NCBI GenBank assembly: GCA_913040875.1
Contig: CAJWHX010000071.1
Coordinates: 1-11,342, forward strand
DNA: 11,342 nucleotides
Direction: 5' to 3'
DNA from: an uncultured Pseudomonadota bacterium
GTDB lineage: Bacteria > Myxococcota > UBA796
Made by a program: the position numbers and the translations under genes. The notes below the pieces were generated by a model. It searched no databases. It was given only the letters and a program-made list of their open reading frames with translations, and was not told where the DNA came from. Positions 1,578 to 9,872 of the stretch are shown here, one piece after another (within the stretch, counting starts at the first letter, position 1; the number at the start of each line of letters is the position of its first letter).

Positions 1578-1619
1578 ATCAACTATCAACTGTCAACGAT
1601 GAACGATGAACGATGCGGG
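1578..1619. repeat. Degenerate heptanucleotide tandem repeat
   Basis: Six consecutive 7-base units can be read: atcaact, atcaact, gtcaacg, atgaacg, atgaacg, atgcggg. They fill the gap between the convergent ends of the lipoprotein gene and the selenoprotein gene. The units drift gradually from one variant to the next. They resemble the short heptamer tandem repeats seen in intergenic DNA of some bacteria such as cyanobacteria. No function can be assigned. Confidence 0.6.
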
Positions 1620-1632
1620 ACGGACAGATACT

Positions 1633-2169
1633 TTACTCCGAACCAATCAGTCCAACCATCGCCTCTGTAAGGAAGGCTAGATTGTCCGGAGACCCCAGGT
1701 CGTGCTGTGTGAGGTTGTATACAAATCGCAAGTCCCCATTTTGATCTAGAATATAGACGTCTCTGTACTGGACATCCCACTGTGTCCAAGCATCGACCTC
1801 TTCAATATCTTGGAGCCATGGGATATCTCTATCCTCAGTGACACGTTCATTTCCATTTTCATATCCAATGCCGTTGACTCCGATTATTTGTACAGCATGT
1901 TCGTCTTTGTTCAATGTGTCTTGCAGAGCATTCAAATGACCAAACTGGCCAGAGCAGTATCCTCATGTTGAGTGACCAAAATACCAAGCCGAGACGAGTT
2001 CTGGACTGGTGGATGCAAACTGATCACTAGATACGGTCGTATCGTATAGATCTGAGGTTATGTTGACATCTAGAAGCGAAAAGACTGGTAGGGTTTCATT
2101 GATGTATTCAATGTTAAATGACTGACATCCGGTGTACATCAGCAAAGTTGTGAAAATGAATGATGACAT
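1633..2169 (-). CDS. Thioredoxin-fold selenoprotein, exported lipoprotein (in-frame TGA read as selenocysteine)
   Basis: On the minus strand an ATG at 2169-2167, with a GGAG ribosome binding site 8 bases upstream, starts a frame that meets TGA at codon 69 (1965-1963) and then stays open to a stop at 1635-1633. Read through, it gives 178 residues. The N-terminus (S-S-F-I-F-T-T-L-L-M-Y-T-G-C15) is a short lipoprotein signal with an off-consensus lipobox. Then come L-P-x-F-S-L-L-D-V-N (28-36), as at the start of redoxin domains, and A-W-Y-F-G-H-S-T followed by U69-G-Y-C72, exactly where thioredoxins carry CxxC. Further on are the helix S-G-Q-F-G-H-L-N-A-L-Q, I-P-W-L-Q-D, and the strand Y-R-D-V-Y-I-L-D-Q-N-G, where the usual cis-proline appears to be missing. 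A hairpin fitting the bacterial SECIS consensus follows the TGA. The part after the TGA has no ribosome binding site and no ATG of its own at its head. The gene lies 18 bases behind an SseB-domain gene. Probable role: periplasmic or outer-membrane thiol-selenol oxidoreductase. Alternative: a disrupted pseudogene with a Cys-to-TGA mutation. Confidence 0.78.
1937..1951 (-). promoter_or_regulatory. Putative bacterial SECIS element
   Basis: Immediately downstream of the in-frame TGA, the minus-strand RNA can fold as UGGCC-AGUUU-GGUCA, a 5-bp stem with one G-U pair and a 5-base loop. The apical loop begins 16 bases after the UGA and has G as its second base. Described bacterial SECIS elements have a short upper stem 16-37 bases after the UGA and a conserved G in the first two loop positions, so this fits at the lower distance limit. 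The stem is short and does not extend well outward, so the assignment leans on the protein evidence. Confidence 0.55.
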
Positions 2170-2187
2170 TGTAAATTCTCCAAGGTG

Positions 2188-2919
2188 CTATACAAATCGT
2201 TTAACTCGTGCCCACAAACTGTCGAGTTCACTTTTGTACAACTCTCCTCTGGTTTCACCTTTTGGATTCAACCATAGGGAACCGGCATTTTGCTGAACAG
2301 CCTTTTTGAGGATCTGCAACATGGTCAATTCTTGCAGGTGTTGACCTCTTGGGTTGTACTGCAACGCGTGCTTTTCATCAGTGAAAGCCCCGAAACAATC
2401 TAGGTTTACGATGGTGTCGCACTTTTGTAGAGACCCATCATCATTGACCAATGCTAGCAAAGTGGCATCTAAGAGGGTGGTATACATTTGTAGGCGAAGC
2501 TGATGATCTTTATTTCGAGCCAACTGCTTCATTTGTCCAACCAGTATTCGATTGTAGATTTGTAAAGATGGACTGGGAACGACCGTTGTAGAAATGGTTT
2601 CGGAACTTTCTCCAAAGATGGAGAATATACTCTCTATCGTTGAATTCAATTCATTCAACTCAGAAGCATCCGTGAAGGTGTACAGTCGCCCAAGAGAGTA
2701 GCCTTGTCGTCGCTCTTTTAACCCAAGTACGGTCAAGTGCTCCAACTGTTCAACCGTCAGATGGTGTTCCTTGGGAAGATTTTTGTTGCAAGAGACTTCA
2801 AGTAACATTCGACTAGATGGCCGAAAACTTCGAATGGTTACCCAGTAGTGTTTGCCCTCAAACAGGACCCGATGTTCAGGAGTATTGAAGAGCGTTTGCA
2901 ACGATGGAAAAGGAGTCAT
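2188..2919 (-). CDS. SseB-like domain protein with N-terminal TY-Chap/YbjN-like region
   Basis: The product has 243 residues; the ATG start (2919-2917) is supported by AGGA 7 bases upstream. There is no signal peptide and no membrane segment, so it is probably cytoplasmic. The C-terminal half (about 145-235) follows the SseB N-terminal domain pattern: L-L-D-A-T-L-L-A-L-V-N-D-D-G-S, then G-A-F-T-D-E-K-H-A-L, then G-S-L-W-L-N-P-K-G-E and a final E-L-D-S-L. The N-terminal half (about 15-105) has the strand-strand-helix and 'L-G-L-K-E-R-R-Q-G-Y-S-L-G-R-L-Y' pattern of type-III-chaperone-like (TY-Chap/YbjN) domains, a weaker match. Such proteins often act as small-molecule-free binding or chaperone-like proteins, and no catalytic residues are evident. 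It is the first gene of a probable two-gene unit with the selenoprotein. Whether the two are functionally linked is unknown. Confidence 0.6.
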   Translation of the reverse strand: MTPFPSLQTLFNTPEHRVLFEGKHYWVTIRSFRPSSRMLLEVSCNKNLPKEHHLTVEQLEHLTVLGLKERRQGYSLGRLYTFTDASELNELNSTIESIFSIFGESSETISTTVVPSPSLQIYNRILVGQMKQLARNKDHQLRLQMYTTLLDATLLALVNDDGSLQKCDTIVNLDCFGAFTDEKHALQYNPRGQHLQELTMLQILKKAVQQNAGSLWLNPKGETRGELYKSELDSLWARVKRFV

Positions 2920-5421: not shown

Positions 5422-5450
5422 CGAATTATTCCTTGAATACAGGAGTCTTT

Positions 5451-6467
5451 ATGTGGTTGTTGACTTGGACGTTGTCGATGGGCTGTCTAACCAAAATGGT
5501 CGATCGAGTAACCGTGGATCGTATTGTGGGTGAAGGCCAGACGATAGCCGATACACAGATGCCCTGCGCTTTGGGAGAATCGCTCAATCATGTTTTGATG
5601 GCGACTCAAGGAAAACGCACACCCAATTTGGGACTGTTGATCAGCAATGGCACTAGTGGTATTTGCGCACAGAGTAAAGCGTGGGAAGAACGTCTACGTG
5701 CAGAGCGTACGAAGGTTCAACGTCCGTTAACGGATCCGTATAGAGTCGCAGAGATCAAAGATGCTCAGATAGCTGCCAAACGGTGGGACAGACAGACGGC
5801 CAGACGATTTTATGCTGCATTTACATATGCAGAAGCCGGATTTGGATCTGTCGACACTCCCTGTCCAACGATCGAGGCACGGGATGAGTCAGCCTATTTG
5901 GTGGCCTTGATAGCGGGTACGTTTGCAGTCCTTCACGATAAGCAGAGTGACGGTACGGTAGGAGTTCCTTTGGATTTACTCCCCAAGATTGCACGTGCTT
6001 CGACTTGTTTGGATAATGAGAAGTGGTGGCACGTTCCTCAGGCATTGAGAGGGGGAATATGGGCAACCATCCCCGGTTCTGGACCGGACGACGTGGAACC
6101 TTGGGCGTTGCTTGAACAGGCAGCCAAAGAAGGTTCCGAGAGTGGTGTTCGCGTTGCGTATGCGGTGGGCGCACTACTTGCTAACAATGCTGGTGAGACA
6201 GACCGCATGCGACAGTTTTTAATTGGACACGGCGACTCAGTAAATCAAACGCCTCGGAATCAAGGTTTTGCCTTCTTTGATCAATATGCATATGAAGTTT
6301 CATTGCATCAATCTGACCTGTTGTGGATAGCTGAAACCGGTCATCGAACTCCGATACTGGGTGGTTTACCCATGTCCATACAGGAGACTCCATCTATAGA
6401 CGGCGAGGATCCGTTTGGTGACGATGTTGAAGCAGAGCCAAGTGAAGATCCGTTTGGTGAAGAGTGA
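5451..6467 (+). CDS. tatT: TatT, lipoprotein component of a TRAP transporter (TPR-associated)
   Basis: The ATG at 5451 is chosen because AGGAG (5441-5445) lies 5 bases upstream; it gives 338 residues. A short signal ends at a lipobox-like S-M-G-C12, so the protein is probably lipid-anchored in the periplasm. The body fits the TatT family: a helical repeat protein with an early C-A-L-G-E-S-L...N-L-G-L-L-I-S-N-G segment, and a central R-R-F-Y-A-A-F-T-Y-A-E-A-G-F-G where the family has 'a..fY..g..Ya..gf'. In Treponema pallidum, TatT (Tp0956) is a trimeric TPR-like lipoprotein that binds the solute-binding protein TatP, and may pass hydrophobic ligands. The next two genes encode a TatP-like protein and a fused permease, the same order. 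The C-terminal tail is acidic and carries two DPFG motifs (320-323, 333-336) that echo the DPFA motifs in the permease. Confidence 0.7.
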   Translation: MWLLTWTLSMGCLTKMVDRVTVDRIVGEGQTIADTQMPCALGESLNHVLMATQGKRTPNLGLLISNGTSGICAQSKAWEERLRAERTKVQRPLTDPYRVAEIKDAQIAAKRWDRQTARRFYAAFTYAEAGFGSVDTPCPTIEARDESAYLVALIAGTFAVLHDKQSDGTVGVPLDLLPKIARASTCLDNEKWWHVPQALRGGIWATIPGSGPDDVEPWALLEQAAKEGSESGVRVAYAVGALLANNAGETDRMRQFLIGHGDSVNQTPRNQGFAFFDQYAYEVSLHQSDLLWIAETGHRTPILGGLPMSIQETPSIDGEDPFGDDVEAEPSEDPFGEE

Positions 6468-7625: not shown

Positions 7626-9872
7626 ATGATGGATCGCATACGTCAGTTCACCGCACTGGGCATCTTTGGAGTGCTCTTTTGCGCGTTGTTGTTTGGGCTG
7701 GGTCCCTCTCTTTCTGCTCGACTGGTCTTGATCGGGGAAAAGATTTGGGACGGATACGCACAAGACTTGCGCTATGATCCAGATGTACCCGAGTGTGATT
7801 TACAAGAACTGGAATCTAAGCTGGAAACCTGCCCGGTAACAAATGGCCCAACGGGTGTTGAAACCGATGAGACAGATGATGAGGTAGATCCATTTGCAGA
7901 TGAACAGGATCCGTTTGCAGATCCTGAAGAGGACCCTTTCGCCGATGAACCAATAGTCAATACCGCGGTAAAAGAAGAGGACCCTTTTGCAGAGGAATCA
8001 GATCCCTTTGCAGAGGATGCAAAAGAAGACGCGAAGGCCGAGGCGGATCCATTTGCTGAAGAGGTCGATAAAGACGATCCGTTTGCGGGTGAAGCAGATC
8101 CTTTTGCCGCGGCACCATCGGTGCCCAAAGTGAACTGTATAGCATTGAGTACGTTGGCAGAGCGATGTTCGATGCGACATGCAGCCTACGATGATGTACA
8201 ATCTAGGTTGACCACAGATGTTCGGGCATATCGCAGCGTGGAGCTTGCTTTTGGAGCCATGGCGAAGTTTCCATATTGGAAGCACATGCTCATTCTACTT
8301 ACGTTACTGGGAGCCATTTCAGTCACCTCCCGCAATGAACACATTTCTTTGCGAGAAGTCGAGAATCAAACAGAACATCGAGTATCACAAACATTACAGT
8401 TGACGGTACATCTGTTGTGGCTTGTTTCCTGTTGGAATGATTATCAAGTTCAGCAGGCATCTGCTGCAGCAGCCGAGCATGCTGGAATTCCCCTTTTGTG
8501 GTGTGCGGGTTTTGCCGCGTTGGCAATCATTAATGTGTCACACCTCATGAAGCGTCCGGAGTTTTCAAATCCTCAACAGTTTTCGATTGGACGTTTGCTG
8601 ATGACCATTCCACTGTTTACCTACATGGGACTGATTGCTGGGGTTTGGTTTTTGGGCTGGGAAGGACTCTCTTCAGGACAAGCCATTTACTTGCACAAGT
8701 TTATCCAACATCCGACCATTTACCTCGGGATTGGTCTGTATATTTGGGCAGGGATGTTATTCGCGACGACTCGAGTAGCGAGGTTGGCATTTGGATTGCT
8801 TACACCGTGGGGATTGCCAATAGGGGTACTGGCTTGGCTTGCTGTGGTGTTGTCCGCCATCCCAACGGCATATTCCGGCGCCTCAGGTATTTTTGTAATT
8901 GCCGCTGGTGCGGTAATATTTGAGCAGCTTCGTAGTGCCGGAGTTAGCAAACGGATGGCCCTTGCAGCCACTGCAATGTCTGGATCTCTAGGCGTGGTTT
9001 TACGTCCTTGTTTGGTGGTGGTCCTCGTAGCGGTCCTTAATAAACAGGTGACCACGGATGAATTGTTTTCTCAAGGTTTGTGGGTGTTTGCCTTGACGGC
9101 GGTCCTGTTGCTGGGAGCCTTTTTATGGCGGAATCCGGAGCCTCTTCGAATTGATCCCGACCCACGTGCCAAAGAATTGTTTATGGGTGCGGTAACATCT
9201 TTACTGCCTTATGCAGGTCTAGTGCTGATCGGATGGTTTGCCTATGGCTTCTTGCTTGACATGTGGGTCAATGAACAGACGGCAGCATTGGTGTTACCCG
9301 GACTTCTATTGGTCATAGTGGTGTGGGAGAGAGTGAAAGTTCGTCCGAGTTTGCCAGAAGAGCCAGATCAAAGATCTGTAATGCCAACGTTGATCGATGC
9401 GACGATGGAATCGTCTATTCACATTGGAGCGTTGTTGGTGTTAATGGGAGCATCGGTTGCACTTGGCGGAGTGGTTGAACGGGCTGAGGTGATGTCCTTC
9501 TTTCCACAAGACTTAGGTGGACCGGTCGGAGCAATGACCGCACTCGTTGGGTTGATGGTGCTTGTTGGAATGACGATGGATGCTTTGGGCGCTGTGGTTC
9601 TCGTTTCAGTGACACTGGCAAAGGTCGCTTACGACAATGGCATTGATCCCGTACATTTCTGGATGATGGTCTTGGTGGCTTTTGAGTTGGGATATTTGAC
9701 GCCGCCAGTAGCCCTCAATCACTTACTGGCACGTCAGGTGATTGGTCCAGAGTCCAATCTGGAAGATGAGGAACTGGGATTCTGGTCTGACAACGAACAC
9801 TTATGGCTTCCCATGCTGGTGATGGGTGTGGCACTGGTATTGGTTGCATATGTCCCATTTATTTGGTATTAG
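7626..9872 (+). CDS. tatQM: Fused TRAP transporter permease (TatQM-like, DctQ-DctM fusion) with DPFA-rich insertion
   Basis: The product has 748 residues in the inner membrane. One helix (about 7-29) is followed by a long extracytoplasmic loop (about 35-215). This loop has four Cys (57, 69, 171, 181) and eight DPFA motifs in a strongly acidic stretch (88-161). More helices follow (about 219-345) and correspond to a DctQ-like small-subunit part. From about 355 onward comes the DctM-type large permease: A-Y-S-G-A-S-G-I-F (415-423), S-G-S-L-G-V-V-L-R-P near the first re-entrant hairpin, and G-M-T-M-D-A-L-G-A-V with G-Y-L-T-P-P-V-A-L-N (689-698) near the second. TRAP permeases use a sodium gradient together with a periplasmic binding protein. 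The fused arrangement and gene order match TatT-TatP-TatQM. The start codon could equally be the next ATG (7629). Which ligand is imported is not visible. Confidence 0.8.
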   Translation: MMDRIRQFTALGIFGVLFCALLFGLGPSLSARLVLIGEKIWDGYAQDLRYDPDVPECDLQELESKLETCPVTNGPTGVETDETDDEVDPFADEQDPFADPEEDPFADEPIVNTAVKEEDPFAEESDPFAEDAKEDAKAEADPFAEEVDKDDPFAGEADPFAAAPSVPKVNCIALSTLAERCSMRHAAYDDVQSRLTTDVRAYRSVELAFGAMAKFPYWKHMLILLTLLGAISVTSRNEHISLREVENQTEHRVSQTLQLTVHLLWLVSCWNDYQVQQASAAAAEHAGIPLLWCAGFAALAIINVSHLMKRPEFSNPQQFSIGRLLMTIPLFTYMGLIAGVWFLGWEGLSSGQAIYLHKFIQHPTIYLGIGLYIWAGMLFATTRVARLAFGLLTPWGLPIGVLAWLAVVLSAIPTAYSGASGIFVIAAGAVIFEQLRSAGVSKRMALAATAMSGSLGVVLRPCLVVVLVAVLNKQVTTDELFSQGLWVFALTAVLLLGAFLWRNPEPLRIDPDPRAKELFMGAVTSLLPYAGLVLIGWFAYGFLLDMWVNEQTAALVLPGLLLVIVVWERVKVRPSLPEEPDQRSVMPTLIDATMESSIHIGALLVLMGASVALGGVVERAEVMSFFPQDLGGPVGAMTALVGLMVLVGMTMDALGAVVLVSVTLAKVAYDNGIDPVHFWMMVLVAFELGYLTPPVALNHLLARQVIGPESNLEDEELGFWSDNEHLWLPMLVMGVALVLVAYVPFIWY
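7887..8108 (+). repeat. Eight in-frame DPFA motif copies in the permease gene
   Basis: The motif D-P-F-A, usually followed by an acidic pair (DE, EE, ED), occurs at residues 88, 95, 103, 119, 126, 141, 151 and 158. Codons vary between copies (gatccatttgca, gatccgtttgca, gaccctttcgcc), so the repeat is conserved at protein rather than DNA level. Spacing is irregular (7-16 residues), and the stretch is predicted to be disordered and extracytoplasmic. Confidence 0.85.

Follow-up and report, generated by a model that had tools for sequence, protein, structure and literature searches.

Does the TGA that divides a minus-strand reading frame in the window (the whole stretch of 11,342 nucleotides analysed here) end a gene, or is it read through, and if so as which amino acid? 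The frame opens with an ATG at 2169, meets one TGA at 1963-1965 and continues in the same phase to a TAA ending at 1633, and the context of the TGA is WYFGHST-U-GYC. The preliminary description had reported two adjacent minus-strand frames of the same phase split by a single TGA at a UxxC motif, and its coordinates, phase and motif were exact. The features of this gene are as follows.

1633..2169, minus strand: candidate selenoprotein gene of 178 residues with Sec predicted at residue 69 and a TAA stop, from the frame and the NF053656 match (176.1 bits)
2178..2181, minus strand: GGAG, probable ribosome-binding site, from the sequence
1963..1965, minus strand: in-frame TGA, putative Sec codon (U69), from the 15 genomes over the family cut-off, of which 14 have TGA and 1 has Cys at the homologous site
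1954..1956, minus strand: Cys72, second residue of UxxC and probable resolving Cys, unchanged in all 27 rows of alignment A4

The ATG at 2169 is preceded by TTGGAGAATTTACA. The first start codon past the TGA is a TTG at 1935, preceded by CTGCTCTGGCCAGTTTGGTCAT, where no ribosome-binding site was found, in accordance with the earlier claim that the second half lacks one of its own. TGA terminates 2 of the 11 other window genes counted, each time with more in-frame stops soon after it, and the Trp codon TGG is used 81 times in these 11 genes. TGA is therefore an ordinary stop in the window, as the preliminary description had held when it considered recoding as Trp unlikely.

The read-through product matched the NCBIfam profile NF053656.1 (redoxin_TUGYCR) with a score of 176.1 bits (cut-off 100; E = 3.8e-52). 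The match covers residues 28-172, nearly the full profile, and because this range includes residue 69 a single profile matches both sides of the TGA. In NCBIfam release 20.0 the family is named 'TUGYCR motif thioredoxin fold (seleno)protein', and its profile matches all 19 members of our alignment A1. The window product has the same UGYC site, with TUGYCS instead of the TUGYCR of the family name, and this last position varies in other members too. Thus, the gene is a divergent addition to a redox-protein family already curated by NCBI, and the suggestion that it was undescribed finds no support here. The strings TUGYCR and NF053656 were absent from the literature searched by text, and neither TUGY nor NF053 was found in the main text of the 2026 review PMC13188914. 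Table 1 of that review lists Prx-like thiol:disulfide oxidoreductase and redoxin family selenoproteins (PF00578 / PF08534, UxxC), which the window product resembles in its redoxin fold with a UxxC site, and earlier surveys may have counted some members under other UxxC redoxin families. PF00578 (AhpC-TSA) is the best Pfam match of the window product, yet its 18.4 bits lie below the gathering cut-off of 26, and PF08534 matches 2 of the 19 A1 members and leaves the window product unmatched at E up to 1.

The codon at the site was compared in 294 genomes from the phylum of G001, the Planctomycetaceae MAG that carries locus L001. The family was matched in 45 of them at E up to 0.001 and in 15 over the cut-off. 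In 14 of these 15 genomes the matched region contains a single TGA, which always falls on the homologous position, and the remaining genome, G001, has TGT (Cys) there, as does locus L002. The pattern by which bacterial selenoproteins are recognized, a TGA aligned with Cys or with TGA in homologues, is thus found for the window gene. Chance is excluded, because the homology extends over both flanks of the TGA and because 14 genomes share a TGA at this position. L013 and L014 are tandem double-domain forms in which the first domain has Ser at the site (ATSIYARDQF and ATSLYARDQF, respectively) and the second domain has the TGA. The Cys form occurs as a C-terminal domain in proteins of 957 and 973 residues (L001, 7622-10495, plus strand; L002, 7329-10250, plus strand) in two Planctomycetaceae MAGs, both of which also have SelB over its cut-off. 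Among the loci below the family cut-off, the codon was viewed for L026 only, a more distant redoxin with TGA (1606-1608, plus strand) in the motif WUGFC.

Two protein searches gave 122 listed homologues; scoring in the second was confined to the 7997 candidates with the most shared words, candidate length was limited, and the best 120 of 121 matches were listed. Among those listed, 98 align only past the site (in 93 the alignment starts within the homologue's own first 12 residues, and 5 carry more residues ahead of it), 8 end exactly on the residue preceding it, and 16 span it, with Cys in 6, Trp in 8, Gly in 1 and a frameshift in 1 (P0017). Short 5′ halves were probably under-counted because of the length limit. 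These counts bear out the prediction that annotation would give two halves, and the alignment to databases that the preliminary description had proposed gave a profile running across the TGA and Cys at the site in the six homologues above. Two public entries are shown to be pieces of TGA genes, since P0091 (98 residues) is identical to the part of L025 after the TGA and P0123 (205 residues) to the part of L024 before it. The entries that begin past the site include ones named Nannocystis pusilla and Nannocystis sp. (Myxococcota).

That public annotation stores halves could be taken to mean that the protein truly ends at residue 68 and that the locus is a pseudogene or two separate genes. We regard this as highly improbable and reject a decayed gene, since 14 genomes conserve both the TGA and the open frame that follows it; moreover, the second half has no ribosome-binding site in the window, the first half would lack most of the thioredoxin fold according to the model described below, and the Cys relatives are single proteins. 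The eight listed relatives with Trp at the site (P0002-P0007, P0013 and P0019), two of which share 95% and 92% identity with the window protein, raise another reading, that the TGA is decoded as Trp or that it arose by mutation or sequencing error from a genuine TGG codon. None of these entries, however, comes from a contig longer than 1,362 bases, and judging from the proteins, translation with code 4 by gene callers on such short contigs may explain them. In the frameshifted relative P0017, Val-Arg over the site leaves eight possible codons, which include TGA and TGC and exclude TGG. The 14 genomic relatives carry TGA, and five close relatives (P0008-P0012, 68-79% identical) start past the site. 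On the usage of TGA as an ordinary stop and of TGG in the window, the codons possible in P0017 and the alternation of TGA and Cys, we judge Trp recoding, a TGG codon or a code-4 organism to be unlikely, with only a few chances in a hundred.

A selenocysteine codon would be accompanied by a SECIS element, and a hairpin of this kind lies just past the TGA.

1936..1952, minus strand: SECIS-like stem-loop with the loop AGTTT, 16 nt past the TGA, from covariation (n = 15) and RNAalifold, with 5 of 6 pairs formed in the window
1921..1957, minus strand: the hairpin with a possible lower stem (1954-1957 with 1921-1924), from the RNAalifold consensus, with 3 of 4 lower pairs formed in the window as read off the alignment

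The hairpin alignment consisted of 15 sequences, the window and 14 relatives, with stem columns 14-19 facing 25-30 around an AGTTY-like loop. Of the 90 cells, 82 were paired, against 70% in shuffled alignments, and 22 cells were changed on both sides, against 6.2 in shuffles; none of 500 shuffles was as high in either measure. Two of the five measures were not above the shuffles, namely pairs with changes on both sides (98 of 500) and further pair types (322 of 500). When the partner was shifted by 1-3 columns, pairing fell to 27-43%, and synonymous recoding that kept the protein gave a mean of 51.4 paired cells with a maximum of 65 (n = 5000), so that none reached 82. RNAalifold, with the structure not supplied, paired columns 15-19 with 25-29 and added the lower stem. 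This result indicates that the hairpin is maintained by compensatory changes. The window hairpin by itself is unexceptional (z of -0.17 and +1.18, with 17% of recodings doing as well), and pairing is weak in some relatives (3 of 6 pairs in L015, 4 of 6 in L011 and L017). The contrast between TGA and Cys forms is modest because non-TGA sites still form 3 or 4 of the 6 pairs (4 in L001, L002 and L014, 3 in L013). L026 forms 1 of 6, and its sequence does not follow the hairpin register of the main family. The review PMC13188914 gives as bSECIS limits a loop of 3-9 nt with G in the first two places, a stem of at least 4 bp, a spacing of 16-37 nt and an MFE of -7.5 kcal/mol or lower; the window hairpin, with a 5-nt loop, G in second place, a spacing of 16 nt and -9 kcal/mol, lies within those given there.

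The Sec machinery was determined in the genomes of the TGA-bearing relatives. SelA was over its cut-off in 12 of the 14, with a SelA fragment at a contig edge in G282, and SelB in 11 of the 14, G092 and G110 being judged by their E-values (1.9e-87 and 1.5e-90). tRNA-Sec was found at 68 bits or more in 8 of the 14, and in 10 of the 15 over-cut-off genomes if G001 and a 49-bit match in G282, which may be an ordinary tRNA, are counted. At least one of the three was present in 13 of the 14 genomes, and none of them was found in G214. Across the phylum, SelB passes its cut-off in 190 of 294 genomes, so the 11 of 14 seen here does not stand out clearly as an enrichment, and the machinery speaks for compatibility with Sec insertion more than it serves as evidence of it.

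An AlphaFold model built from 18 sequences (pLDDT 88.2, pTM 0.83) places residue 69 directly before the helix 70-88 and Cys72 in the first turn of this helix, and residues 1-16 are of low confidence. A PDB sequence search with the window product gave no match at E up to 0.1. The solved structures nearest to the model include ResA, DsbE, Bcp1 and AhpE, at 13-20% identity. The likeness in fold to ResA / DsbE / TlpA-like oxidoreductases (2h1b_A, TM 0.82; 3gl3_D, 0.80, by target length) comes with 14-17% identity, and the window product has Sec, as we read the codon, where their first Cys stands. In addition, the N-terminus may direct export.

2125..2169, minus strand: putative short signal peptide with a lipobox-like YTGC end (Cys15), from the sequence and the low-confidence model residues 1-16

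The YTGC is lipobox-like, but the signal is short and lacks a basic residue; the lipoprotein signals of L015, L016 and L023 are more typical by eye. Most likely, the product is exported, perhaps with a lipid anchor, and works as either a thiol-disulfide oxidoreductase or a peroxiredoxin-like enzyme. The earlier view of a thioredoxin-fold selenoprotein with a UxxC site agrees with the profile, the TGA/Cys site, the hairpin and this model.

Which of these activities would prevail is less certain. The same selenoprotein might be mainly a peroxidase of the peroxiredoxin kind rather than a disulfide exchanger, a reading to which we give somewhat less than even weight. It would fit with AhpC-TSA as the best Pfam match, even below its cut-off, with the rank of the Bcp1 and AhpE structures alongside ResA, and with the strand YRDVxILD, which we take to resemble the conserved Arg strand of peroxiredoxins. 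On the other hand, the ResA and DsbE structures match too, and a UxxC pair at the start of a helix is usual for disulfide oxidoreductases.

Upstream of the candidate selenoprotein gene lies a second gene on the same strand.

2188..2919, minus strand: gene with an SseB N-terminal domain (PF07179, 24.5 bits, cut-off 21), ending 18 nt before the ATG

From this spacing, the two genes are possibly co-transcribed. Just downstream of the candidate selenoprotein gene, at 1585-1625 on the minus strand, are the short direct repeats CGTTCATCGTTCATCG and GTTGACAGTTGATAGTTGATC. An Rfam scan of the window gave one match, at 2422-2470, which was below the gathering score and was taken as chance. Elsewhere in the window, the protein encoded at 5433-6467 (plus strand) ends in acidic DPF repeats, EDPFGDDVEAEPSEDPFGEE, and DPF repeats recur about 10 times in a DctM-type TRAP permease two genes on (7626-9872, plus strand). 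An AdeT-like protein of the window, compared in order to place the window in a phylum, matched only Marinobacter and Acinetobacter plasmid records (40-44%); it had no match in the 294 genomes, a search that shows nothing as it had no positive control. No relative was confirmed in the viral contigs searched.

Taken together, we hold with a probability of about 0.93 that this is a bacterial selenoprotein gene encoding an exported redoxin. UGA at codon 69 would be decoded as selenocysteine, directed by the SECIS hairpin, whose loop starts 16 nt downstream, with SelB and tRNA-Sec. The product would be exported with a thioredoxin fold, perhaps lipid-anchored, and Sec69, positioned where the first long helix begins, would act as the nucleophile, with Cys72 as the resolving residue. 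The enzyme would then act outside the cytoplasm as a thiol-disulfide oxidoreductase or a peroxiredoxin-like enzyme.

For the family as a whole, we lean towards a wider reading, that these exported redoxins mostly use Sec, with Cys as the exception, that they occur at least in Planctomycetota and probably also in Myxococcota (Nannocystis), that they have a conserved SECIS of their own with an AGUUY loop, and that the family is largely hidden because databases store its members as halves. New in this analysis are a divergent family member, covariation in support of the SECIS hairpin and a tally of database entries that are split. The gene shows how annotation hides such genes, since databases mostly store the family as broken halves, and the Nannocystis entries suggest a named host in which the use of Sec in an exported redoxin could be tested.
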